This document shows, piece by piece, positions 34,064 to 58,874 of a DNA stretch of 64,000 nt. Source of the stretch: Thermococcus sp. MAR1 (GTDB taxonomy: Archaea; Methanobacteriota_B; Thermococci; Thermococcales; Thermococcaceae); contig NZ_SNUF01000001.1 in assembly GCF_012027305.1 (NCBI RefSeq), positions 992,001-1,056,000 on the forward strand. Reading direction: 5' to 3'. A program made the translations under genes and the position numbers. Positions within the stretch are counted from its first letter, which is position 1. The number at the start of each line of letters is the position of its first letter. The notes under the pieces were generated by a model. The model had not been told where the DNA came from, ran no database searches, and saw only the letters and a program-made list of their open reading frames with translations.

Positions 34064-34522
34064 TCATTTCATAAGAACGAAGCCCACTATGTTCCCGTCA
34101 TAGGCTAGGAAAACCTTAACGCCGTTGGGGGTTTCGTAGGCGGCATAAATGCTCAGCTGAGTGAGGTCGTAATCGCCAACGACCTTTCCGATGTGATCAC
34201 CCTCGTAGACAAGTTTCTGGACGGTTATGCCGCGATTGTTTGTGAACTCCTCAACCGTGACCTGGGCAAGATAGTCAGCTACCTCGACAGGGTCAACGTC
34301 CACCCCGGTTAGGTTGGCCGACTTCACACCGAGGCCCATATAGGGAGTCCCATCTCCGGCCATCATTCCACCGTTTCCGTGCCCCATGCCCCGGGCATAG
34401 GTCATAGCCGCACTCCTCTCAACTTCCGGATTCGGTCCCGGAGTGCCCTGATAGGCCGCAACGGCCCCAAATATCAGGCCGAACACGGCCAGTGCCATAA
34501 ATCCAGCCAGCAACTTCTTCAT
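34064..34522 (-). CDS. Secreted protein of unknown function
   Basis: The 152-residue precursor has a signal peptide (KKLLAGFMALAVFGLIFGAVAA) and a mature part with a Gly/Met/His stretch (YARGMGHGNGGMMAGDG). That stretch could bind a metal such as copper. The C-terminal half (VQKLVYEGDHIGKVVGDYDLTQL) looks like a compact beta-rich domain. I do not recognise the family. A TATA-like GTTTATAAAG lies about 50-60 bases before the ATG. Confidence 0.68.
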   Translation of the reverse strand: MKKLLAGFMALAVFGLIFGAVAAYQGTPGPNPEVERSAAMTYARGMGHGNGGMMAGDGTPYMGLGVKSANLTGVDVDPVEVADYLAQVTVEEFTNNRGITVQKLVYEGDHIGKVVGDYDLTQLSIYAAYETPNGVKVFLAYDGNIVGFVLMK

Positions 34523-34669
34523 GTCATATCACCTCTACATACGTAACTGTAATATTGCATATGTGTGATTCTTTATAAACTTTGCGGTTCCGGAAACCAT
34601 AAAACCGGTCATGCCGCGTTTGAGGTGTGAGATTACAGATAACAACAGCTAATAACAGCAATCCCATCG

Positions 34670-34827
34670 GGGGAGCTGGAGGGGATGCTCAGGAAGATGG
34701 CGAGGGTTTTTATCAGCGTGGAGGAGACGGAGCCGCTTCACGGTATGCCCGGTACAGACTCACCATCGAGGGGGTAGGGAAAAGGTTCATTGAGACGCTC
34801 AGGCTCGCCAGGCCCGGTGATTACCCC
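34670..34827 (+). pseudogene. Possible relic of a winged-helix regulator gene
   Basis: One plus-strand frame reads ELEGMLRKMARVFISVEE and another, shifted at about 34740-34760, reads YARYRLTIEGVGKRFIETLRL. Joined, they look like the end of a PadR-type winged helix (the YRLTxEG wing and a C-terminal helix). No intact start or continuous frame exists. The rest of the gap 34523-34669 holds only the promoter of the minus-strand secreted-protein gene. Confidence 0.4.
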
Positions 34828-35870
34828 ACGAGGGCGTTTCTAAAGCCTAACTTCTCAACCATCTCGGAGGCTTTCTGCATTTCATCCTCCTTAAGCTCCC
34901 TGTTGATCTCAGGATGCCTATCCGCCCTGTATTCCGGCCGGTACTGAAACATAACGTTTACCCTGACGTCCTTTCCGAGATTTTCGGCTATCCATTTCAG
35001 TATTGGCCGCGTGCAGCATTCGAGGTGTCCCGGGATCACGAGGTGCCTTATTAGGAACTCCGCTCCAAGGTGCTTCCTAGCGAGGAGGAAATTCCTCGTC
35101 ACGACTTCCCAGTATCTTGAAACCCCTGAGTACTTCTTGGCGCAGACGTTGTTTCCCCATTTAAAATCGGCGAGATAAACGTCAACCACACCGTCGAGGA
35201 GCCTCATGGTCTCCTCGCTCATATACATGTTAGAGTTCCAGACGACGGGAATCGGAACGGTCACGTGCCTCAGGGTCTCAAGGATGAAGGGCAGATTCGG
35301 TGTCGGTTCGCCGCCGACGAAGTTAACGTTCCTGGCTCCCCTCCGAAAAGCCTCCTCGATTTTTAGAGCCATGAACTCAGGTGGATGTTCAATCCCAACG
35401 CGGTACTGACTTATGTCCCAGTTCTGGCAGAAAACGCACCGGAAGTTGCAACCGGAGAAGAAGACGGTGTAGGACGGCACCAGCTCAGGTTCCTCCCCAT
35501 AGTGGAGGAAGTCGCTCGCAACGAGGCTCTCTCGGACGCGACAGTAACCGATGCTCTTCCTCCTGTCAACGCGGCACTTTATCTCGCAGAGGGTACATGA
35601 TTCCAGAATCCTGTTGGCGATGAACGCCTTGAGGTCGAGAAGGCTCTTCTCAGGAACCTCGGTGAGGTCGTTGTCCTCCAGCCTGTCCATCCCCTCGGCG
35701 TGAGCGCTCCAGAGGTCGTCGAGCGGAGCATCCTCGCTAAAGCTCACCGCAACCTTTCTCGCGTTGAAAAATATCGGCTCGACTTCCCCAGCGAGGATCG
35801 AGAAATAGCGGGGTAGGGCCTTCCTCGCCCTTCCGGGTTCGTACCTATAAAATCTCCCGCGCCACATCAT
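34821..35870 (-). CDS. Radical SAM protein (PflA-like)
   Basis: The 349-residue protein has the radical SAM cluster motif CNFRCVFC (in SGCNFRCVFCQNW), the glycine-rich FVGGEPTPN, and a preceding Cys-rich stretch CTLCEIKCRVDRRKSIGYC that could hold another iron-sulfur centre. It belongs to the group annotated as pyruvate-formate-lyase activating enzyme homologues, whose targets in Thermococcales are unclear. Length fits the family. Confidence 0.87.
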   Translation of the reverse strand: MMWRGRFYRYEPGRARKALPRYFSILAGEVEPIFFNARKVAVSFSEDAPLDDLWSAHAEGMDRLEDNDLTEVPEKSLLDLKAFIANRILESCTLCEIKCRVDRRKSIGYCRVRESLVASDFLHYGEEPELVPSYTVFFSGCNFRCVFCQNWDISQYRVGIEHPPEFMALKIEEAFRRGARNVNFVGGEPTPNLPFILETLRHVTVPIPVVWNSNMYMSEETMRLLDGVVDVYLADFKWGNNVCAKKYSGVSRYWEVVTRNFLLARKHLGAEFLIRHLVIPGHLECCTRPILKWIAENLGKDVRVNVMFQYRPEYRADRHPEINRELKEDEMQKASEMVEKLGFRNALVG

Positions 35871-35912
35871 ATTGCCGTACGTCTAAAACCCCTAAAACGT
35901 TTGCCTCACCGC

Positions 35913-36602
35913 TTAATCCCTGAGGTTGAGGTCGGACCACTCAACGGCCCTCCTGAGGCTGATGAAGCAAGAATCGCAGTAGCCGAGCATCCTAGAGTCC
36001 CATTCCTCCATGCTAGAGGGCGAGTTCATGACGCAGTTGTTGGTGCAGTGACCGAGGCCAAAGCTGTGGCCGACCTCGTGGAGAACCCCCTTGAGGAGGC
36101 GGTTCTTGAAGAGCTGGAGCTTGGACCTCAGAAGCTCTCTATCTCCATTCTCTCCAGGCTTCTTCAGGAGCTCCGAGAGCTCGGGGGGTTCAAAAGGCCT
36201 CATCGAGAGCACCATGATCCTGAGGCCAATCCGCGTTTCGTGTATTCCAAGAAACTTTTCGAAGAAATCGAAGTAGGGATTGCGAGAGACTAGAGGGAAG
36301 GTCGTCAGGGCAAATATCTTGTTCATCTTGATGTCTGGCCGCTCCTCTATCTCGTTGAGAAGCTTGGCGTGGAGGACATCGACCAGAGCCTCAAGGGGAT
36401 AAACTCTGACCTTACCTTCCGGGGTGTTCAGGCTTATCAGGTACCCTGGCTCAAGCTTGAGCTTCCCAATGTACAGAAAACGCAGGGGGATATCGCTCTC
36501 CTCGAAGAAATGATTGGCCTCCTCAAATACGTTAAACACGACCTCCCTTATGACCTCCTCCTTCACGAAGTTCCCGACGTATGTGAAGGCTATGAACTCC
36601 AT
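35913..36602 (-). CDS. amzA: Archaemetzincin metalloprotease
   Basis: The 229-residue protein ends with the archaemetzincin signature: HEVGHSFGLGH for zinc, directly followed by a Cys, then CVM and, 17 residues on, CDSC, matching the family pattern HExxHxxGxxHCx4CxMx17CxxC. It is a predicted zinc aminopeptidase-like protease with an extra structural zinc. The N-terminal ~130 residues are an alpha/beta part typical of the family. Confidence 0.92.
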   Translation of the reverse strand: MEFIAFTYVGNFVKEEVIREVVFNVFEEANHFFEESDIPLRFLYIGKLKLEPGYLISLNTPEGKVRVYPLEALVDVLHAKLLNEIEERPDIKMNKIFALTTFPLVSRNPYFDFFEKFLGIHETRIGLRIMVLSMRPFEPPELSELLKKPGENGDRELLRSKLQLFKNRLLKGVLHEVGHSFGLGHCTNNCVMNSPSSMEEWDSRMLGYCDSCFISLRRAVEWSDLNLRD

Positions 36603-36674
36603 GATTTCATCACAAATGAAAGGCCGTTTTATGCTTATTAAATTTTTAGGTTATTAGGTAATTGCACCACAAAC

Positions 36675-36684
36675 GTTTTTAAAC
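36675..36684 (+). promoter_or_regulatory. TATA box of the fluoride-riboswitch operon
   Basis: GTTTTTAAAC lies so that a transcript would start about 20-25 bases on, that is at the first bases of the aptamer at 36704. The tight fit supports both calls. Confidence 0.65.
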
Positions 36685-36703
36685 GCCTTTCAGATGGTCT
36701 TTT

Positions 36704-36764
36704 GGGCGATGGCGTCCGCCCGGGCTTCGAGCCGAACCGCCCGCCGAGGGCTGATGACGCCTGT
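36704..36764 (+). ncRNA. Fluoride riboswitch (crcB motif)
   Basis: The sequence matches the crcB aptamer: GGGCGATGGCGTCCGCCC at the start and GGGCTGATGACGCC near the end. Stem P2 is GGGCG (36704-36708) with CGCCC (36717-36721). P1 is GGCGTC (36711-36716) with GACGCC (36756-36761). P3 is GCCC (36739-36742) with GGGC (36748-36751). The AACC before P3 and CTGATGA after it are conserved-type positions. An extra GC-rich hairpin (about 36722-36734) separates P2 and P3. After the aptamer, a TCTCC run (36765-36769) could pair with the GAGGAGG ribosome binding site of the next gene, which would allow translational control. Fluoride riboswitches are known in bacteria and in Thermococcus. Confidence 0.92.
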
Positions 36765-36794
36765 TCTCCGTCAAAACCTTGAGGAGGCGGTAGA

Positions 36795-37661
36795 ATGGGC
36801 TCGAAGCTTTATACAATTGGAAGGTTCGTTAACGCTGATTCGCTCATCAGGTACATAGAGGAGAGACGCCATGAGGACGGTGGCTACTGCTTTGTCAGTG
36901 TTCTCGATGACACCAACGTCAACGACACGTACTACGCGGTCAAGATTTACGATCTCCTTGGCATGAAGGTTCCGGAGCCAGAAAAGACGGTGGAGTTCCT
37001 CGAAAGGGCAATACAGCCCCAGACGGCGGTCGTTGCGATAGCAATGGCAATGGAGGGTCTGGCGATACTGGGTGCAGGGGACGTGGCCAGGGAGCACGTT
37101 GGGATAGTGTTCACCAAATACAACCCCCTTGAGGGCAGGTTCGCCGTTGGTCTCGGTGGAAGCGAGGAGTTTGGAACGGCGACGCCGCTGGAGGCAACTT
37201 ACTGGGTCGTCAAGGCGTTCAAGGCTATAGGCTATGATTTTAGCCCCGACGAGAAGGAAGCCATAAGGACCTTCGTCATGAAGTTCAGGAACGGAAACGG
37301 TTACGGCGTTAAGGGGCCAACTACGACGATGACGTATCAGGCACTGCACACGCTCCGCACTTTAGGCTACAGGCCGCCTAAGAGCCCCCACTTCAAGAAC
37401 TGCGAACTCTGCGGCGAGTGGGGCGGCTTTACGGAGGTTCCATACAGCCTTCCCCCCTACCTTGAGCCTACGTTCTACGCTTCCAGAGGACTTGAACTGC
37501 AGGGCGAGAGGCCGGACTGCCCAAGACGGCACATCTGGTTCATACGCCAGCTTCAGAACTCCAACGGCGGCTTCAGACGTTCGCTGGAACTGGGCATCTC
37601 GAACTTCCAGAACACATACCGGGCGCTGGCGGTGCTTGACTTCATGAACAGGTTCATCTGA
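36795..37661 (+). CDS. Prenyltransferase/squalene-oxidase-repeat protein under fluoride riboswitch
   Basis: The 288-residue protein is built of alpha-alpha hairpin repeats as in terpenoid cyclases and protein prenyltransferase beta subunits (DGGYCFVSVLDDTNVNDTYYAVKI, PLEATYWVVKAFKAIGYD, NSNGGFRRS...FQNTYRALAVLDFM). It also has a CELC pair and a late Cys. A cofactor or substrate cannot be named. GAGGAGG precedes the ATG. It is the first gene after the riboswitch, so its expression should respond to fluoride, but no fluoride role is known for this fold. Confidence 0.8.
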   Translation: MGSKLYTIGRFVNADSLIRYIEERRHEDGGYCFVSVLDDTNVNDTYYAVKIYDLLGMKVPEPEKTVEFLERAIQPQTAVVAIAMAMEGLAILGAGDVAREHVGIVFTKYNPLEGRFAVGLGGSEEFGTATPLEATYWVVKAFKAIGYDFSPDEKEAIRTFVMKFRNGNGYGVKGPTTTMTYQALHTLRTLGYRPPKSPHFKNCELCGEWGGFTEVPYSLPPYLEPTFYASRGLELQGERPDCPRRHIWFIRQLQNSNGGFRRSLELGISNFQNTYRALAVLDFMNRFI

Positions 37662-37670
37662 GTGGTGGGC

Positions 37671-38360
37671 ATGGATTTGATTGGCATTTACCTCCGGGAT
37701 GCAATGGGGGAGGGCTGTCCCGTCTGCAGAATCCTCCGCAAATACGAGGAATCCGAGATAGAGACGATACTCTATGAGCACGTGAACAACCCGGACGTGA
37801 GGGAGAAGTTCAAGGAAAGCCTCGGTCTCTGTACCTACCACGCATGGAAAACCCTCAGAAAAGCGTATTCGGAGCCCCTGTTGGGCCCCCTGGGCGTGGC
37901 CATAATCTACGAACACATGCTGAGGACGTACATAGCATACCTTGAGGAGGGCACGTTTCCGGAGGAGGGAGAGTGTTTCCTCTGCGGATTGATGGCGGAA
38001 AAGGAGAGAAGCACGGTAGACGCGTTTGCGGAAAGGATTGAAGAGCTCCTTCAGGAGTATGAGAACTCGGAATCGGTGCTCTGCAGGAGACACTACAGGA
38101 TGCTGGTGTCAATCCTTCGGCGGACGAATCCGGATGCTGCGGAGAGGCTTGGGACCGTCCAGCTGGAAAAGTTGCAGATCCTCAAGGAGCGACTCGGCTC
38201 GTTCATCGACAAGTTCGACTACCGTGCCGAGGAACCGCCCACAAAGAAGGAAACATCGGCACTGCCCCTGACTATAGAAGCCCTGAAGGGCCTCGAAACT
38301 GGGGCAACGGTGAGAAAAACCCAGGATAGAAAAGGTCGGAGGGGCTTTCCGTGGAGATAG
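37671..38360 (+). CDS. DUF6062-type Cys-rich protein
   Basis: From the ATG at 37671 (GGTGGG upstream) the product is 229 residues. It carries repeated Cys/His pairs: CPVCRIL, LCTYH, CFLCGL and LCRRHY. These look like two zinc-binding knuckle units spaced by helices, as in the DUF6062 family. Function unknown. It lies ten bases after the prenyltransferase-fold gene and overlaps the next gene by ten bases, so all are one transcription unit. Confidence 0.75.
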   Translation: MDLIGIYLRDAMGEGCPVCRILRKYEESEIETILYEHVNNPDVREKFKESLGLCTYHAWKTLRKAYSEPLLGPLGVAIIYEHMLRTYIAYLEEGTFPEEGECFLCGLMAEKERSTVDAFAERIEELLQEYENSESVLCRRHYRMLVSILRRTNPDAAERLGTVQLEKLQILKERLGSFIDKFDYRAEEPPTKKETSALPLTIEALKGLETGATVRKTQDRKGRRGFPWR

Positions 38361-38653
38361 AGGTCACAAGCGAGGAGCTGAAGGCCATACGAAAAAACAA
38401 GCGCGAGATAGAGAAGAGACTCCGGGACCTGGAGGGGCTGGAGAGGACGCTTAGGGTTCTAAAGCTTCGCCTCCTTCTCGAAAGAAAGGATGGGCTGGAA
38501 AAAAAGCTGGCCGAGATGAGGGTCAGCTATGCCGAGCTCGTCGAGTTCGAGGAAACCGCAAAGCGGGACAAGGAGTTCCTTATGGCATTCCGGAAAGAGC
38601 TCAGCGAGGAAAACAGGAGGCTTAGAGCGGAGCTGGAGGCCAGAAGAAGATGA
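38351..38653 (+). CDS. Small coiled-coil protein in the fluoride operon
   Basis: The 100-residue product, from a GTG at 38351, is almost wholly charged helix: EELKAIRKNKREIEKRLRDL and later SEENRRLRAELEARRR. It is probably a coiled-coil partner of a neighbour. I do not recognise it. It overlaps the preceding gene by ten bases and the following one by four (ATGA). Confidence 0.65.
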   Translation: MEIEVTSEELKAIRKNKREIEKRLRDLEGLERTLRVLKLRLLLERKDGLEKKLAEMRVSYAELVEFEETAKRDKEFLMAFRKELSEENRRLRAELEARRR

Positions 38654-39075
38654 AACTCACGGTAAGACCAAAGAAGGGCTGGCGTCGGGTGACGTTCAGG
38701 ATTCTGGACGAGACCTTTGAGGAAATCATGGAGCTCTGTGAACGCTACGATTTTCGCCCGGAAGAGGCGGTCAGGATAATCCTCCTCCACGGCTACCTCG
38801 ACGACGACCCGGAAGCCAACGAGACGGCGTTCAAAAGGCTCAAAGAAGAGATAGCCAGGCTCGATGCGGAGCTCTACGAGCTGGAGGGAAAATGGTCTCC
38901 CCTAAAGTTCCGCTCGTACTACATCGCCCTGGACAACCAGAACCTCGCGATACAGCTCTCCGCCATGATCGCCGAGAACAAGAGGCTTCGAGAGCGGCTG
39001 GGACTTCCAAAGAGGGACTACAGTGAGGTCGAAAAAAAGATACGCTACTACCTCAACTTCGGTGGGAAGGAATGA
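38650..39075 (+). CDS. Ribbon-helix-helix-like/coiled-coil protein in the fluoride operon
   Basis: The 141-residue protein starts KLTVRPKKGWRRVTFRILDE followed by two helices (ETFEEIMELCERYDF and PEEAVRIILLHGYL). That order, strand-helix-helix, resembles a ribbon-helix-helix DNA-binding unit. A coiled-coil stretch follows (FKRLKEEIARLDAELYELEG), then a C-terminal part with an NQNLAIQLSAMIAENKRLRERLG helix. It could be a regulator of the operon. This is inference from shape only. Confidence 0.65.
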   Translation: MKLTVRPKKGWRRVTFRILDETFEEIMELCERYDFRPEEAVRIILLHGYLDDDPEANETAFKRLKEEIARLDAELYELEGKWSPLKFRSYYIALDNQNLAIQLSAMIAENKRLRERLGLPKRDYSEVEKKIRYYLNFGGKE

Positions 39076-39128
39076 CCACCTCCACTGACCCCGCAGGACT
39101 AAAACGCGCTTTCCCGGACTCCTCAGGG

Positions 39129-39143
39129 TACAAAAATCTTAAG
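39129..39143 (+). promoter_or_regulatory. Possible internal promoter for crcB
   Basis: TACAAAAATCTTAAG in the 125-base gap before crcB resembles a TATA box and could give crcB a second, fluoride-independent start. No second aptamer is seen in the leader; only a small hairpin (CTGGAACCCAG) is present. Confidence 0.35.
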
Positions 39144-39200
39144 TAGGGATCGTCCGACGCACCCCTGGAACCCAGAAGGCCAAAACGCATGGTGAGAAAA

Positions 39201-39957
<757 letters not shown>

Positions 39958-39968
39958 GTTCCTCCTAA

Positions 39969-39980
39969 GTATTATATATG
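39969..39980 (+). promoter_or_regulatory. TATA box of coaBC
   Basis: TATTATATATGAG lies about 35 bases before the coaBC ATG, in the gap after the DUF190 gene. Confidence 0.5.
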
Positions 39981-40012
39981 AGTTAGTGCTACCCTCTTCT
40001 GGAGGTGTCCTC

Positions 40013-41224
40013 ATGCTTCACCACGTTAAGCTTATTCACGCCACCAAAAGCCGGAAGCTTCTCGGGAAGAAAATCGTTCTCGCGATTCCTGGCAGTATAG
40101 CCGCCGTCGAGTGCGTAAAACTTGCCAGGGAGCTTATTCGACACGGCGCGGAAGTCCACGCCGTCATGAGTGAGAACGCAACCAAAATAATTCACCCCTA
40201 CGCCATGGAATTCGCCACCGGAAATCCGGTCGTAACTGAAATCACCGGCTTCATAGAGCACGTTGAGTTGGCTGGAGAGCACGAGAACAAGGCCGACCTG
40301 ATCCTCGTCTGTCCTGCAACTGCAAACACGATAGGAAAAATCGCCTGCGGCATAGATGACACGCCAGTTACAACCGTTGTGACAACGGCCTTCGCACACA
40401 CGCCCATAATGATAGCCCCCGCGATGCACTCCACCATGTACGAGCATCCGATAGTCGTTGAGAACATCGAGAAGCTCAAGGGGCTCGGCGTCGAGTTCAT
40501 AGGCCCCCGCTTTGATGAGGGAAAAGCAAAGGTCGCCTCGATAGACGAGATAGTCTACCGCGTAATCAAAAAGCTCCATCCAAAGACCCTCGAAGGAAAG
40601 CGCGTTCTCGTCACTGCCGGTGCAACGCGGGAGTACATAGACCCGATTCGCTACATAACCAACGCGAGTTCTGGAAGAATGGGCGTGGCTATAGCGGAGG
40701 AGGCGGAATTCAGGGGGGCAGAGGTAACGCTCATTAGGACTAAGGGAAGCGTTCCCAGCTTCGTAGAGAACCAGGTCGAGGTGGAAACGGTAGAAGATAT
40801 GCTTGAGGCGATAGAGAATGAGTTAAAGGCCAAGAAATACGACATAGTTGTCTTAGCGGCCGCGGTCAGCGACTTCCGTGTCAGGGAGAAGGCCAGCGTA
40901 AAGATAAAGAGCGGAAAGGCATTAACGCTTGAGCTTGAACCTACGCCGAAGATAATAGACCGCGTTAAAGAACTCCAGCCCGGTGTCTTTCTCGTCGGTT
41001 TCAAGGCCGAAACCGATGAGGAGAAACTAATCGAAGAAGCCAAGCGTCAGATTGAGCGTGCCGGAAGCGATTTGGTTGTTGCAAACACGCTCAGAGCTTT
41101 CGGCAGTGAGGAGAACGAGGTGCTCTTGGTTGGCAGGGACTTCACAAAGAGGCTCCCGAAAATGAGCAAGCGCGAGCTGGCCGAGAGGCTCTTTGATGAA
41201 ATAATTTCAATCCTTAACCGGTAA
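40013..41224 (+). CDS. coaBC: Phosphopantothenoylcysteine decarboxylase / phosphopantothenate-cysteine ligase
   Basis: The bifunctional 403-residue enzyme makes 4'-phosphopantetheine for coenzyme A. The N-terminal flavodoxin-like decarboxylase has VLAIPGSIAAVECVKLARELI and CPATANTIGKIACGIDD. The C-terminal synthetase has VLVTAGATREYIDPIRYITNASSG and AAAVSDFR, and the late VGFKAET. The ATG at 40013 is preceded by GGAGGTG. Confidence 0.95.
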   Translation: MLHHVKLIHATKSRKLLGKKIVLAIPGSIAAVECVKLARELIRHGAEVHAVMSENATKIIHPYAMEFATGNPVVTEITGFIEHVELAGEHENKADLILVCPATANTIGKIACGIDDTPVTTVVTTAFAHTPIMIAPAMHSTMYEHPIVVENIEKLKGLGVEFIGPRFDEGKAKVASIDEIVYRVIKKLHPKTLEGKRVLVTAGATREYIDPIRYITNASSGRMGVAIAEEAEFRGAEVTLIRTKGSVPSFVENQVEVETVEDMLEAIENELKAKKYDIVVLAAAVSDFRVREKASVKIKSGKALTLELEPTPKIIDRVKELQPGVFLVGFKAETDEEKLIEEAKRQIERAGSDLVVANTLRAFGSEENEVLLVGRDFTKRLPKMSKRELAERLFDEIISILNR

Positions 41225-41282
41225 GGGAAAAGCTTTTCTACTATTTTCCCGATTCTTTTTGAAAACTATTCGGGGTGATAGT

Positions 41283-42095
41283 ATGGTGGCTTTCGATAAG
41301 CCCCTGCCGTACGTAGGGGCCACACCCTTTCAGCTGGCATCAGCATTAATAATACTGATCGTAGGCTACATTGTGGCGAGGGTGCTCGTTGGCGTCTTCA
41401 AGAAGAGCCTTAAGAAAACTAAGCTTCCACCGCTCGTTATCGAGTTCCTTGGACGGTTTCTGTCAATTCTCCTCTACGTAGTTGTCATAATAGTCGCCCT
41501 CGGCGCAGTGGGTATCTCAGTGTCTCCACTCATCCTCGGTCTATCGGCCGTCATAGGCTTGATCTTGGGCTTTGGCCTGCAGGACACCCTCACGAACCTG
41601 GCCGCTGGGGTGTGGATAGCGGCACTGAGACCGATTGACATCGGCGAAGTCGTGGAGGTAGCCGGACAGACCGGGAAGGTCGAGGCGGTTGGGATAATGA
41701 GCACAGAGCTTTTGACCCCGGACAACAAGTTCATTACCATACCCAACAAGCTCGTCTGGGGAAGCGTCATAACCAACTACACAAGGATGCCGACGAGGCG
41801 CGTTGATGTGGACATAGGAGTTGCCTACGGAACCGACCTTGACAAGGCAATAAAGCTCGCTATGGACCTGATTAAGAACCACCCACAGGTTCTCGACGAT
41901 CCTGAGCCGAGCGTGGTCATAACGGCACTCGCGGACTCCTCGATAAACCTCCAGCTCCGCGCCTGGGCCAAGACAGAGGACTACTGGGCCGTCAAGGGCG
42001 ACCTCACGAAGGGCGTCTACGAGCTCTACGCGAAGGAGGGCATAGAGATACCGTTCCCGCAGCTCGATGTCCACATCAGGGAGATGCCCAAGTGA
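41283..42095 (+). CDS. MscS-family mechanosensitive channel
   Basis: The 270-residue protein has three N-terminal helices. The pore-lining third helix is rich in Gly/Ala (GLSAVIGLILGFGLQDTLTNLAAGVWIAAL), with the family FGLQDTLTN turn. Next come the beta domain (IDIGEVVEVAGQTGKVEAVGI, TIPNKLVWGSVITNYTR) and the C-terminal alpha/beta domain ending PQLDVHIREM. It releases solutes on hypo-osmotic shock. The ATG at 41283 has GGGGTGAT upstream. Confidence 0.92.
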   Translation: MVAFDKPLPYVGATPFQLASALIILIVGYIVARVLVGVFKKSLKKTKLPPLVIEFLGRFLSILLYVVVIIVALGAVGISVSPLILGLSAVIGLILGFGLQDTLTNLAAGVWIAALRPIDIGEVVEVAGQTGKVEAVGIMSTELLTPDNKFITIPNKLVWGSVITNYTRMPTRRVDVDIGVAYGTDLDKAIKLAMDLIKNHPQVLDDPEPSVVITALADSSINLQLRAWAKTEDYWAVKGDLTKGVYELYAKEGIEIPFPQLDVHIREMPK

Positions 42096-42107
42096 TGCAT
42101 TTCCCTC

Positions 42108-42114
42108 TTTTTTT
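42108..42114 (+). terminator. T-tract terminator after the MscS gene
   Basis: A run of seven T shortly after the stop codon in an A/T-rich gap is a typical archaeal intrinsic terminator. Confidence 0.5.
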
Positions 42115-42188
42115 AACTTTCAAGAAAGATTTTTGAACTTTGCCGCCCAGTTTTATTATTGTCAGAAGCCGTTACAAAGTGAGCAGGG

Positions 42189-42911
42189 ATGGTGGTCATA
42201 GGAATAACAGGTTTTGAAGGCAGCGGTAAGACCGCCCTAACTGCGAACATAGGGGCCTGCCTAGCCATGAGAGGCATTAGAACCCTTCTCGTCGACGCCG
42301 ACCTGTACTTCCCCAACCTGGCGTTCCAGTTCGGGGTTGCTCCCAAATACACGATTCACGCCTACCTAGAGAACCCAAGGATGGACCTGGAGTGGTTAAC
42401 GTATCCGTACATGGAAATAAAGAACCTGCATCTTCTCCTGGGTGACCCCAACGCCCCAATACGGCACAAACTATCCTTCAAAAACCTCACGACCCTTATC
42501 GAGTATTTCAAACCTGCATACGGTGCCGTTCTCATAGACTTTCCCTCAGGCCTTCCAATAGACGCCCATCCACTCATCTTGGAGCTTGATTATCAGGTGC
42601 TCGTCATAGACCCCAGCACCGTGCCCCTGAGGAACCTCCACGACTGGGTGGACTCGGCGATCAGGAAGTTCCTCCACCTGGGAATCGAGGACTTCTGGGT
42701 GATTCTCAACAAGCCGCTCATACCAGAAAGGAATTTGGAGGCCCTTGAAAAGTTCGTCTCGGAGGAACTGGAGGTACCTCTTCTAGGTACGGTACCGTAC
42801 GACCCGCTGATACTGGAGGGAACCTATAACGGCACACCGCTTTGTGCGTGGGGTGACGAGCTGGGTGTGATAACCAGACTTTCCGGTACGTTTGAAGAAA
42901 TCTTCTTCTAA
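42189..42911 (+). CDS. MinD/ParA-like P-loop ATPase
   Basis: The 240-residue protein has a P-loop GFEGSGKTALTANIGA, then LLVDADLYFPNLAFQFG and AVLIDFPSGLP, as in the MinD/ParA branch. The deviant Lys of the usual KGGxGKT is absent (FEGSGKT), so dimer-dependent catalysis may differ. Late motifs are FWVILNKPLIPER and PLLGTVPYDPLI. No MinD partner lies beside it. The role is unknown. Confidence 0.83.
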   Translation: MVVIGITGFEGSGKTALTANIGACLAMRGIRTLLVDADLYFPNLAFQFGVAPKYTIHAYLENPRMDLEWLTYPYMEIKNLHLLLGDPNAPIRHKLSFKNLTTLIEYFKPAYGAVLIDFPSGLPIDAHPLILELDYQVLVIDPSTVPLRNLHDWVDSAIRKFLHLGIEDFWVILNKPLIPERNLEALEKFVSEELEVPLLGTVPYDPLILEGTYNGTPLCAWGDELGVITRLSGTFEEIFF

Positions 42912-42962
42912 CTCTCCAAAAGGCTCATAAACCCTGAAATGTCCCGTTTCTTGGTGGTTCTT

Positions 42963-43643
42963 ATGAAAAAGATAGGGATAATAGGCGGAACAAGCCCCGA
43001 GGCGACGTGTTATTACTACAAGAAATACCTGGAGATAAGCAGGGAAAAGTTCGAGCCCTACGTCTTCCCCGAGCTGATAATCTACTCCATAAACTTCAAG
43101 GAGTTCATCCACAACCCGAACGGCTGGGATGGGAGGAAGGAGATACTCATAAAGGCCGCCAAGGCCCTTGAGAACGCTGGAGCCGAGATAATATCGCTTT
43201 CAGCCAACACTCCCCACATAGTCTTTCCGGACGTCCAGAAAGCTGTAAACGTCCCGATGGTGAGCATAATAGACGCGCTCATCGAGGAGATGAAGAGGAG
43301 GGGCGTTAAGAGAGTTCTCCTCCTTGGGACGAAGACCACCATGACGGCCGACTTCTACAAGGACGCCCTCCGCGAGGCGGGTTTTGAAGTGGTCACACCA
43401 AACGAGGAGGAGATGGACGAGCTGAACAGGATAATCACTGAAGAACTCATGTTCGAGAACTTCAGGAGTAAAGACTGGGTGATTGGGCTGATAAACCGCT
43501 ACATCGAGGGTAAAGGGGTCGAAGGCGTCATCCTCGGCTGCACAGAGCTTCCACTCATAATCAAGTCCGGTGATGTGCCGGCGGAGGTCTTCGACACCGT
43601 TGAGATTCACATGAGGAAACTCATCGAAGTGGCAAGCGAGTGA
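42963..43643 (+). CDS. Aspartate/glutamate racemase-family protein, first catalytic Cys missing
   Basis: The 226-residue protein has the racemase fold: KKIGIIGGTSPEATCYYYKK at the start, SANTPHIVFPDVQ at the first active-site loop and VILGCTELPLII at the second. In most members the first loop reads CNTAH; here Ala stands where that Cys should be, while the second Cys is intact. The enzyme may therefore have one-base chemistry, another substrate, or no racemase activity. GGTGG lies upstream of the ATG at 42963. Confidence 0.85.
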   Translation: MKKIGIIGGTSPEATCYYYKKYLEISREKFEPYVFPELIIYSINFKEFIHNPNGWDGRKEILIKAAKALENAGAEIISLSANTPHIVFPDVQKAVNVPMVSIIDALIEEMKRRGVKRVLLLGTKTTMTADFYKDALREAGFEVVTPNEEEMDELNRIITEELMFENFRSKDWVIGLINRYIEGKGVEGVILGCTELPLIIKSGDVPAEVFDTVEIHMRKLIEVASE

Positions 43644-43683
43644 TTTTTAAGCCCTTTTCTTCCCCTTCCTCCAGGTGGGAGAA

Positions 43684-43977
43684 GTGGAGATACGGGAATT
43701 CCAGGAGATGATTAGGGAAATCTACTTCCACAAGGACTCGAAGAGGGGAGTGGATAAAACCTTCCTTTGGTTCGTGGAGGAAGTGGGAGAGCTGAGCGAG
43801 GCTATAAGGAAGAAGGACAGAGAAGCTATGGAAGAGGAGTTCGCCGACGTTTTAGCCTGGCTCGCAAGTTTGGCGAACCTCCTCGGGGTGGATTTGGAGG
43901 AGGCCGCGAAGAAGAAGTATCCGGGAGTGTGCCCCTACTGCGGAAAGAAGCCGTGTGAATGCGAGGAGAAGTTTTAA
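43684..43977 (+). CDS. MazG-type nucleotide pyrophosphohydrolase
   Basis: The 97-residue protein shows the MazG pattern FVEEVGELSEAIRKKDREAMEEEFADVLAWLASLAN with EExxE and ExxD metal ligands. It ends in an added zinc-knuckle-like tail, CPYCGKKPCECEEKF. It hydrolyses NTPs or damaged dNTPs. The GTG at 43684 follows GGTGGGA at a good distance; a GTG nine bases earlier overlaps that site. Confidence 0.88.
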   Translation: MEIREFQEMIREIYFHKDSKRGVDKTFLWFVEEVGELSEAIRKKDREAMEEEFADVLAWLASLANLLGVDLEEAAKKKYPGVCPYCGKKPCECEEKF

Positions 43978-57238: not shown

Positions 57239-58549
57239 ATGAAGCGTTCAGTAACGGTTAAACTCCAGCCGAGCAAGGAGCAAGCAAAAATCCTTTCCGA
57301 ATTAGCCGACTTAGGAGCCAAAGTCTGGAACAGGGTAAATTATTTGAGAAGACAACAATTCTTCGAGGACAAAATCGTGGACTTCAATTCAACCGAGAAA
57401 ACCGCTTATGAAGAATTCAAGCGAGAAATTGGTTCTGCCACAGTTCAACAGATCTGTCGGAAGAACGCTGAAGCCTGGCGTTCATTCTTCTCCCTCCTTC
57501 AGAAGAAACGGAACGGAGAACTTCCCTCATGGCTAAAACCAAAACCACCCAACTACCTCAAGGAAGAGGGGAAGAGAAAACCCTTAATCGTTTTGAGAAA
57601 CGACCAGTACAGGATTGAGGGAAACAGGTTAATCCTCAAAGGCCTCGGCAAGTTCAAAAAACTCGAAATTCAATTCAAGGGAAGAATACACTTGAATGGC
57701 AAGCAAGGGCGCTTAGAAATCACTTACGACCCAGTTAAGAGGAAGTGGTACGCGCACATTAGCCTTACCGTTGATGAAAAATTTGAGGGCGGTGAATGGG
57801 TTAAGCTTCCAAAAACTCCAAAAGGAAACCTTTCAGCTGGAATTGACCTTGGAGTGAACAACTTAATGGCTGTCTATGTTGAAAATGGTGAAAGCTTCCT
57901 CGTGAATGGCAGGCCGTTGAAGAGTATCGATTTCTACTGGCGGAGGAGAATAGCGGAATACCAGTCCAAACTCAACAAGAGTGGGGCGAAAACGAGCAGG
58001 AAGCTCAAGAGAATGCACGAGAAGGCCAAACTTCGGGCAAAACACTACATCAACACTGCTGTGAAGCAAACGGTTAAAAAACTTTATGAACTCGGCGTTT
58101 CGAGGATTGTTGTCGGCTATCCTAAAGGCATAGCGAGGAACTCTGATAAGGATAAAAAGCAGAATTTCCTCCTCTCTTGCGTGTGGCGGTTCAATACGGT
58201 TATCAAACGTTTAAGAGAGGTTGCTGAAGAGTATGGTATTAGCGTTATGGTTGTCAATGAGGCGTTCACTTCGAAAACTTGTCCCGTTTGCGGGAAGCCT
58301 CACGAGGGGGCTCGTTTTGTTCGTGGTTTGTTTAAGTGTCCCGCAACGGGGCTTGTGTTTAACGCGGACTTGGTTGGAGCGTTTAACATTTTGGGGAAAG
58401 TAGTGAAAACGATAACCCCGAGCCTTGAAGGTTTGAAAGCCTTCAAGGTGAGGGGTAACTGGCCTAAGACCAGGCCAGAGGGGTTCGAAGAACCCGCTCT
58501 AAAGGGTTCTCTGATGAGAACCCCTCAAACCTCCTTGCCCTTGAGTTAG
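57239..58549 (+). CDS. tnpB: TnpB RNA-guided endonuclease
   Basis: The 436-residue protein has the IS605 OrfB N terminus (VKLQPSKEQAKILSELADLGAKVWN). The split RuvC site is complete by motif: Asp in SAGIDLGVNNLMAVY, Glu in VVNEAFTSKTCPVCG, and Asp in FNADLVGAFNIL. The zinc finger has CPVCG, but the second pair reads CPATG, with one Cys missing, as in some Thermococcales members. TnpB uses an omega-RNA from the element's 3' end to cut DNA next to a TTAC-like motif, which keeps the element in the population. A TATA-like TTTTTTAAATCC lies about 30 bases upstream. Confidence 0.93.
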   Translation: MKRSVTVKLQPSKEQAKILSELADLGAKVWNRVNYLRRQQFFEDKIVDFNSTEKTAYEEFKREIGSATVQQICRKNAEAWRSFFSLLQKKRNGELPSWLKPKPPNYLKEEGKRKPLIVLRNDQYRIEGNRLILKGLGKFKKLEIQFKGRIHLNGKQGRLEITYDPVKRKWYAHISLTVDEKFEGGEWVKLPKTPKGNLSAGIDLGVNNLMAVYVENGESFLVNGRPLKSIDFYWRRRIAEYQSKLNKSGAKTSRKLKRMHEKAKLRAKHYINTAVKQTVKKLYELGVSRIVVGYPKGIARNSDKDKKQNFLLSCVWRFNTVIKRLREVAEEYGISVMVVNEAFTSKTCPVCGKPHEGARFVRGLFKCPATGLVFNADLVGAFNILGKVVKTITPSLEGLKAFKVRGNWPKTRPEGFEEPALKGSLMRTPQTSLPLS

Positions 58550-58597
58550 GGGGTTCCTCGTTGGAACCCTCGCCCTTCAGGGCAGGGAGGAGGTCAG
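58412..58597 (+). ncRNA. Candidate omega-RNA scaffold of the TnpB element
   Basis: The 3' part of tnpB and the right end form a chain of stems: ACCCC with GGGGT around the hairpin CTTGAAGG/CCTTCAAG, GGGTTC/GAACCC twice, and the terminal GCCC/GGGC. The start ATAACCCCGAGCC and AGGGGTAAC are also kept in the deleted relative at 60717-60849, with a different but still paired inner hairpin. The guide would be the flank starting at 58598. Ends are inferred. Confidence 0.7.
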
Positions 58598-58874
58598 TCG
58601 TGGGTGCCTCGTACAGGCTCTACCGCCTGGAAAACGGGAGATGGGAAGAACTCAACCTCGGGTTCTCGTTCACTGGTATAGGCTACACGATACCTCCCGG
58701 CAGTAACTGGAGCCAAACCGTGCCCCTCGTTACACACGTTTCTGACGGTGCCGGGAAGCTTGAGCCGTTGCCGCCCGGTAGGTACAGGATTACAAAGACC
58801 GTCATCATCGACAGGGGACGCTGCGGGAGGGGGAGCAGTGAGATAACCCTCTCCGCTGAGTTCGAGGTGGTCGG

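Follow-up and report, generated by a model that had tools for sequence, protein, structure and literature searches.

Organisation of the Locus

The analysed window is a 64,000-nucleotide (nt) stretch of contig NZ_SNUF01000001.1 of Thermococcus sp. MAR1 (assembly GCF_012027305.1, positions 992,001 to 1,056,000), in which a fluoride riboswitch of the crcB class (Rfam RF01734) directly precedes a gene encoding an alpha/alpha-toroid protein, hereafter TOR, and three further co-directional genes, whereas the classical fluoride channel gene crcB lies beyond them. The features of the leader and of this cassette (coordinates of the window) are as follows:

36670–36685, + strand: BRE (B recognition element)/TATA-like element CAAACGTTTTTAAACG, predicted from sequence, which would set the transcript start near 36704
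36704–36708/36717–36721, + strand: hairpin 1, GGGCG/CGCCC
36711–36716/36756–36761, + strand: pseudoknot, GGCGTC/GACGCC
36722–36733, + strand: insert GGGCTTCGAGCC, located between hairpin 1 and the conserved AACCG and shown as an insertion in the Rfam alignment
36739–36742/36748–36751, + strand: P3, GCCC/GGGC
36783–36807, + strand: proposed target of the insert/P3 strand, comprising the ribosome site GGAGG, GGCGGT, the start codon and codons 2–4 (GGC TCG AAG)
36795–37661, + strand: TOR, a 288-amino-acid alpha/alpha toroid (Pfam Prenyltrans), the putative conserved client of the riboswitch
37662–38360, + strand: DUF6062 protein (PF19538, E-value = 8 × 10−20), the start of which may be the ATG at 37671
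38351–38653, + strand: 100-amino-acid protein of no Pfam family, with relatives in 54 of 87 loci
38650–39075, + strand: 141-amino-acid protein of no Pfam family, with relatives in 64 of 87 loci

Identity and Structure of the Aptamer

The covariance search (cmscan, Rfam 15) placed RF01734 at 36696–36770 on the + strand with a score of 47.5 bits, above the gathering score of 34 (E-value = 4.8 × 10−10 over the window), the aptamer core being 36704–36761, which confirmed the fluoride riboswitch proposed for this site in an earlier sequence-only reading. This match was the sole one in the whole genome (98.7% complete), and none other was found in 34500–43700 with permissive filters and E-values of up to 1, so that a second, weak aptamer before crcB of the window was ruled out at that level. 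All of the stems named in the sequence-only reading are present at the given letters; however, two of its labels were wrong, since, in the usual naming of the stems of this class, the GGCGTC/GACGCC pairing called “P1” forms the pseudoknot between loop and tail and the GGGCG/CGCCC pairing called “P2” corresponds to hairpin 1. In the Rfam structure line, the nested helices are a GGGC/GCCC-type hairpin 1 and P3. The insert GGGCTTCGAGCC was absent from that description.

The aptamer alignment contained 71 of the 83 unique leaders, near-duplicates and leaders without the insert having been left out by hand. On these 71 distinct Thermococcales leaders, 98.7% of the cells of the aptamer, pseudoknot and insert hairpin were paired, and the aptamer stems together with the insert hairpin showed changes on both sides at six pairs (18 cells), a value reached in none of 500 shuffles; the pairs of the insert hairpin were among those that changed on both sides. 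Thus, the window aptamer shares hairpin 1, P3 and the pseudoknot with known RF01734 members, whereas most TOR-type leaders, unlike these, carry a further hairpin, formed by the insert, whose sequence complements the client's start codons. The riboswitch itself is already known and expected in Thermococcales, and the window aptamer presumably binds fluoride. The TATA-like TTTTTAAA at 36676–36683 fits a transcript start near 36704, as had been proposed earlier, although this rests on reading the sequence; a T-rich or TTTTAAA-like element occurs at approximately the same distance from the aptamer in many relatives.

Gene Served by the Aptamer in Thermococcales

The survey covered 94 Thermococcales genomes, of which 88 had a match at E ≤ 0.001 and 86 had one over the cut-off, with 103 matches in total. 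The loci of 100 of the 103 were fetched and examined in addition to the window; G062 C73 and G045 C82 stood outside this set, the former genome being already partly covered as locus L025 and the latter locus being fetched and scanned separately. Eighty-eight of the 103 aptamers, each from a different genome, directly precede TOR: the gene lies directly 3′ of the aptamer in 87 examined loci, including the window, and likewise in G062 by coordinates. DUF6062 was found in 55 of the 87 loci. TOR was present in 90 of the 94 genomes, and two genomes, G012 and G080, had TOR without an aptamer; in G080, the gene has lost its beginning. In G012 (L146), the TOR start is intact and the leader retains no more than a segment that looks like the 3′ end of an aptamer, which makes this locus a natural loss and a potential control.

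The crcB gene was located no more than 6 kb downstream in 67 of the 77 fully fetched loci. Meanwhile, in seven genomes (G004–G009 and G020), it was 56.7 kb to about 1 Mb away, and the single aptamer of the genome remained at TOR. Aptamers at four unlinked crcB loci (L149–L152) were ruled out by a rescan, with none found at E ≤ 0.5. Since crcB is far away in these seven genomes while the aptamer stays with TOR, the aptamer travels with TOR and not with crcB, and the comparison of loci suggests that the conserved client of the riboswitch is gene 1, TOR, rather than crcB.

The remaining 15 aptamers were shorter, lacked the insert and preceded a hydrogenase operon rather than TOR. Fourteen of them were examined, all standing before one kind of operon, which in the one genome run through Pfam was a complex I/membrane hydrogenase-like set; the fifteenth (G045 C82; 33.9 bits, just below the cut-off) had the same first gene by coordinates. 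These second, shorter aptamers of 15 Thermococcus-type genomes resemble the fluoride riboswitch described before formate hydrogen lyase genes in the available part of Weinberg 2010. Their leaders differ from the TOR type in lacking the insert and in that the start region, GTGACGCC..CCCGG, complements the aptamer’s own 5′ strand; in each of the 14 loci, 0–3 of 300 shuffles did as well. A small protein related to the 141-amino-acid protein of the window is encoded just upstream of the aptamer in nine of the 14 hydrogenase-type loci (L032, L034, L051, L117, L121, L122, L125, L126 and L127); therefore, this unnamed family accompanies both fluoride-riboswitch operons.

Insert–Start Complementarity and Codon Constraint

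In the unconstrained fold of the window leader, 36724–36733 pairs with 36798–36807, i.e., with TOR codons 2–4 plus a single base of codon 5. ACCGCC at 36736–36741, after the insert, pairs with GGCGGT at 36786–36791. The longest exact insert–start complement was 10 nt, and four of 5000 shuffles had one as long; the duplex energy was beaten by none of 2000 shuffles. Among the 86 loci of the start-region set (G076, in which TOR contains stops, was excluded), an exact complement of at least 10 nt was found in 60. Against shuffled start regions, 68 of the 80 unique insert/start pairs had at most six of 300 shuffles as good. The TOR start was the best partner of the insert among the 83 starts of the window that are preceded by a ribosome site. 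Own insert–start pairs averaged −36.2 compared with −35.3 for swapped ones (standard deviation 0.24, 0 of 5000), a difference that lineage confounds, and counting of the pairs gave 95.7% paired cells compared with at most 45% when the strands were slid. In Pyrococcus-type genomes, the 3′ side of P3 (GGGAGGC) repeats the ribosome-site sequence.

The codons facing the insert were found to be nearly invariant. In the 82 loci counted (G022, G065 C40, G045 C25 and G059, without the usual insert, were excluded), codons 2, 3 and 4 of TOR were GGC in 82 of 82, TCG in 79 of 81 and AAG in 76 of 76, with codon-conservation ranks of 2, 3 and 1 among 150 columns, whereas codon 5, the third position of which is outside the pairing and free, ranked 79th. 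TCG accounts for 13% of the serine codons in the linked genes. No comparable codon conservation was found at the starts of five neighbouring genes, and three TOR genes without the insert (G022, G065 and G045) also differ in their first codons.

The sequence-only reading had proposed that a TCTCC run could mask the ribosome site. TCTCC at 36764–36768 can indeed pair with GGAGG at 36783–36787 in constrained folds; however, the position reads TTCTAC in many relatives, and this pairing is therefore not the conserved part.

The TOR Protein

TOR matched Pfam PF00432 with 42.5 bits (cut-off 26.5), and its AlphaFold2 model (mean predicted local distance difference test score, pLDDT, of 91.3) is an alpha/alpha toroid. 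The model was superimposed on the beta subunits of protein farnesyl- and geranylgeranyltransferases with Z of about 24 and a root-mean-square deviation of about 2.8 Å over about 260 residues, and Foldseek gave E-values of 2 × 10−6 to squalene-hopene cyclase and 1.6 × 10−5 to RabGGTase beta. The likeness to prenyltransferase beta subunits and terpene cyclase toroids is thus one of fold over nearly the whole chain, while TOR differs from the beta subunits in its low identity (16%) and in its linkage to fluoride aptamers. No curated NCBIfam name was returned for TOR or DUF6062 at E ≤ 0.001. A modelled fold shared with prenyltransferases does not show the function of TOR; it may serve fluoride tolerance, and one might speculate that it binds an isoprenoid, a peptide or a fluoride-sensitive enzyme needed as fluoride accumulates.

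TOR in Other Archaeal Lineages

Several hundred genomes were compared overall. Scanning of the TOR alignment against Genome Taxonomy Database (GTDB) contigs revealed 29 TOR loci, 25 of the Thermococcales type and four others, belonging to a Geoglobus, an Archaeoglobaceae, a Methanobacteriaceae and a Bathyarchaeota metagenome-assembled genome (MAG). The Methanobacteriaceae and Bathyarchaeota loci carry fluoride aptamers. One aptamer of the Methanobacteriaceae MAG, with 65.2 bits, stands at the head of genes which, by reading of the proteins, encode an antiporter-like protein, TOR, an enolase and a pyrophosphatase; the available part of PMC11139923 counts antiporters, enolase and pyrophosphatase among the fluoride-riboswitch genes. 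TOR is not among the genes listed there or in the corresponding part of PMC2864571.

In the class of the Bathyarchaeota MAG, TOR was found in 30 of 256 genomes, and of its 34 TOR matches, 30, one per genome, were scanned. An over-cut-off aptamer lay upstream of TOR on the same strand and within about 0.5 kb in 25 of the 30; in one of these loci (L218), an apparent Nudix-type gene, by protein reading, stands between the two. The five misses comprised one plain case (L217), one locus at a contig edge (L224) and three fragments or weak matches (L225–L227). Among the class members without TOR, an aptamer was found in 33 of 226 (Fisher p = 4 × 10−14, which overstates independence because the genomes are related). 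DUF6062 was located 3′ of TOR in 12 of the 30 loci; its profile included four sequences from the loci counted, and those four were confirmed by Pfam.

In the Methanobacteriales-type order of the Methanobacteriaceae MAG, TOR was found in 13 of 150 genomes. By coordinates, 11 of the 13 had a same-strand aptamer no more than 4.4 kb from TOR; of the 137 genomes without TOR, 17 had an aptamer (p = 9 × 10−8, which overstates independence in the same way). The aptamer was downstream of TOR except in G094, and in the seven loci laid out (L240–L245 and L247) it preceded an antiporter-like gene (Pfam was run on one). TOR is a neighbour of the aptamer in this order and not a proven client.

Transporters of the major facilitator superfamily (MFS) adjoin TOR in the Bathyarchaeota class, and others with similar N-termini do so in the Methanobacteriales-type order (L231, L233, L237, L238 and L240–L247). 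The two that were tested were MFS_1 by Pfam, and this may be a further fluoride-linked transporter.

crcB, Its Putative Promoter and Neighbouring Genes

Beyond the cassette, the following features were recorded in the window:

39131–39145, + strand: predicted promoter-like element CAAAAATCTTAAGTA, preceding crcB
39201–39572, + strand: crcB fluoride channel (PF02537, 97.6 bits against 32.9, E-value = 6 × 10−28; TIGR00494, 91.1 against 80.45); the ATG at 39201 fits the conserved start, and the first ATG is 39189
39577–39957, + strand: DUF190 protein adjoining crcB (PF02641, E-value = 1 × 10−37)

The CAAAAATCTTAAGTA pattern had no other match on the + strand of the 64 kb and one further match on the − strand, at 1740. 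It was found 77–116 nt before the equivalent crcB codons in 17 of the 71 linked loci, the window included; in eight of these 17, crcB is 1.4–3 kb past the cassette, and the pattern is present both where the end of the cassette is close by, at about 0.1 kb, and where it is 3 kb upstream. According to the part of PMC4247193 available, T. kodakarensis has a primary start between TK0513 and crcB that is separate for crcB. Meanwhile, in many other genomes crcB closely follows its neighbour and no promoter is seen before it; therefore, co-transcription probably varies between species. Judged from sequence, crcB and the DUF190 gene of the window probably lie beyond the cassette under a promoter of their own. 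Of the multi-gene operon proposed in the sequence-only reading, what holds is that the riboswitch heads several co-directional genes; a single unit including crcB finds no support, in view of CAAAAATCTTAAGTA and the T. kodakarensis start, and neither does the count of five to six genes before the next promoter, a promoter-like element already standing before crcB.

The DUF190 protein also weakly matched the P-II signalling family (E-value = 3 × 10−4, below the cut-off). A gene of peptidase family M54 is divergent from the riboswitch at 35913–36602 (− strand) and occupies a place upstream of the aptamer in many relatives as well. At 58458–58610 (+ strand), the known archaeal RNA family HgcC (RF00062) matched marginally (51.0 bits, cut-off 50).

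Proposed Mechanism and Alternative Explanations

We propose that the transcript starts at the RF01734 aptamer and that its direct client is the TOR cassette (TOR, DUF6062 and the two small proteins). In the absence of fluoride, codons 2–4 and GGCGGT by the ribosome site would be paired with the insert and the 5′ strand of P3, hiding the start. When fluoride is present, the aptamer, being transcribed first, would lock hairpin 1, P3 and the pseudoknot, the insert would fold on itself, and the TOR start would remain free, giving a translational ON switch. The probability of this explanation as a whole, with the TOR cassette as client, an anti-start strand and translational ON control, is estimated at roughly 0.58.

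Constrained folds were calculated for 68 of the 86 loci, namely, those with the standard insert, with energies that include neither pseudoknot nor ligand. When the aptamer and the local insert hairpin were enforced at 85 °C, codons 1–4 opened in 68 of 68 loci, and GGAGG opened in 56 and closed in none; at 37 °C, GGAGG opened in 42 loci and closed in three. Other results weigh against the proposed mechanism. Enforcing the aptamer alone did not free the start. When the insert hairpin was enforced as well, AUG became somewhat less open in the median at 37 °C, and the openness of GGAGG in the window itself fell from 0.39 to 0.15 at 37 °C and stayed level at 85 °C (0.39 to 0.38). By these energies, the open state costs 10–14 kcal/mol in median. 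The leader fold surpasses shuffles in stability by a modest margin (z = −2.03, 7 of 200 shuffles as good), 12 of the 80 unique insert/start pairs had at least 19 of 300 shuffles as good, and the advantage of the TOR start over the next partner in the window is small in energy (−35.4 compared with −33.9), though clearer in length (10 compared with 7 nt). The insert–start pairing did not covary, with one both-side change and 218 of 500 shuffles as high, and the weakly pairing loci G041, G050, G055, G056 and G066 still carry GGC TCG AAG. In the Bathyarchaeota class, aptamer–start complementarity reached p ≤ 0.05 in only four of 25 loci, so that an anti-start strand in every archaeal fluoride leader is not established. 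The two Archaeoglobi-type MAGs (Geoglobus and Archaeoglobaceae; L179 and L182) have TOR relatives, but neither the locus nor the genome contains an aptamer; this argues against TOR and the aptamer being linked universally.

Consequently, the folding energies alone do not show release of the TOR start. Since the closed fold is favoured by energies without pseudoknot or ligand, folding order or the ligand would have to decide. The T. kodakarensis fluoride riboswitch was reportedly used as an inducible system by Speed et al. in 2018. The ON sign assumed here follows from that published use and from the biology, and not from data of the present analysis. The T. kodakarensis switch has been experimentally determined and is presumably translational, according to the part of PMC8241225 available. 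The translational control suggested in the sequence-only reading is likely, and a translational ON switch appears to be the most likely mode on the present analysis.

The complementarity may instead be a by-product of two GC-rich hairpins, with codons 2–4 constrained independently of the switch, for example, because the start peptide is conserved or because they act as a signal for translation start, and with the TCTCC/GGAGG or TTCTAC/GTAGAA hairpin exerting the control. This explanation is doubtful, although it accounts for the missing covariation, for the loci that keep codons 2–4 without a matching insert and for the formation of TCTCC/GGAGG in constrained folds. It does not predict exact complements of at least 10 nt in most loci, nor that the conservation would spare the third position of codon 5 just outside the pairing, leave the neighbouring genes untouched and be altered in three TOR genes that lack the insert. 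According to another, rather unlikely explanation, the locus is one long operon in which the riboswitch mainly induces crcB and the genes before it are passengers. The proximity of crcB in 67 of 77 loci and the often very short gap before it, with no visible promoter, agree with this; however, it is crcB and never TOR that is separated from the aptamer, crcB lying elsewhere in seven genomes, a conserved promoter-like element precedes crcB in the window and 16 other loci, the available part of PMC4247193 gives crcB of T. kodakarensis a separate primary start, and TOR–aptamer pairs occur in other lineages.

It is improbable that the aptamer acts chiefly by transcriptional attenuation or as a stand-alone small RNA, deciding read-through past the leader, with the start pairing being secondary. 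Such a possibility is raised by the T. kodakarensis cell data in PMC4247193, the available part of which maps an 86-nt crcB RNA before TK0513 and, “surprisingly”, not before crcB (2014). However, the stretch between the aptamer core and the start codon has a similar length (window, 91 nt; G024, 85 nt), and the RNA may therefore be just the leader; moreover, no U-run follows the window aptamer, and the codon constraint would be left unexplained. The TOR cassette as client, with an anti-start strand, is the preferred explanation. The switches of the window and of T. kodakarensis come from one taxonomic order and, by the 2014 map, share their position, the latter standing before the TOR gene TK0513.

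Significance of the Findings

The literature search yielded no paper joining the archaeal crcB motif with a prenyltransferase or a fluoride riboswitch with squalene cyclase, Speed 2018 and Baker 2012 not being covered by it; DUF6062 was in no paper found, and TK0513, as well as TK0514 with fluoride, appeared only in PMC4247193. The novelty of the TOR link and of the anti-start platform is not proven. Two features are less ordinary than the riboswitch itself, namely, the TOR/DUF6062 link, which extends across archaeal classes, and the anti-start strand together with its codon constraint. To our knowledge, few archaeal riboswitches have been tested in cells.

On balance, we lean towards TOR and DUF6062 being an unrecognised core part of the archaeal fluoride response. 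They would be riboswitch-linked in Thermococcales and the Bathyarchaeota class and grouped with other fluoride genes in Methanobacteriales, the classical channel could be outside, and the Thermococcales riboswitch would silence TOR by a codon-fixing anti-start strand. If TOR is the real client, the puzzle of 2014, namely, an aptamer before TK0513 and not before crcB (as given in the available part of PMC4247193), would receive a testable answer, and fluoride biology would be extended by a gene family whose fold can be recognised. If true, the proposed platform would represent a riboswitch that constrains the synonymous codons of its own client.
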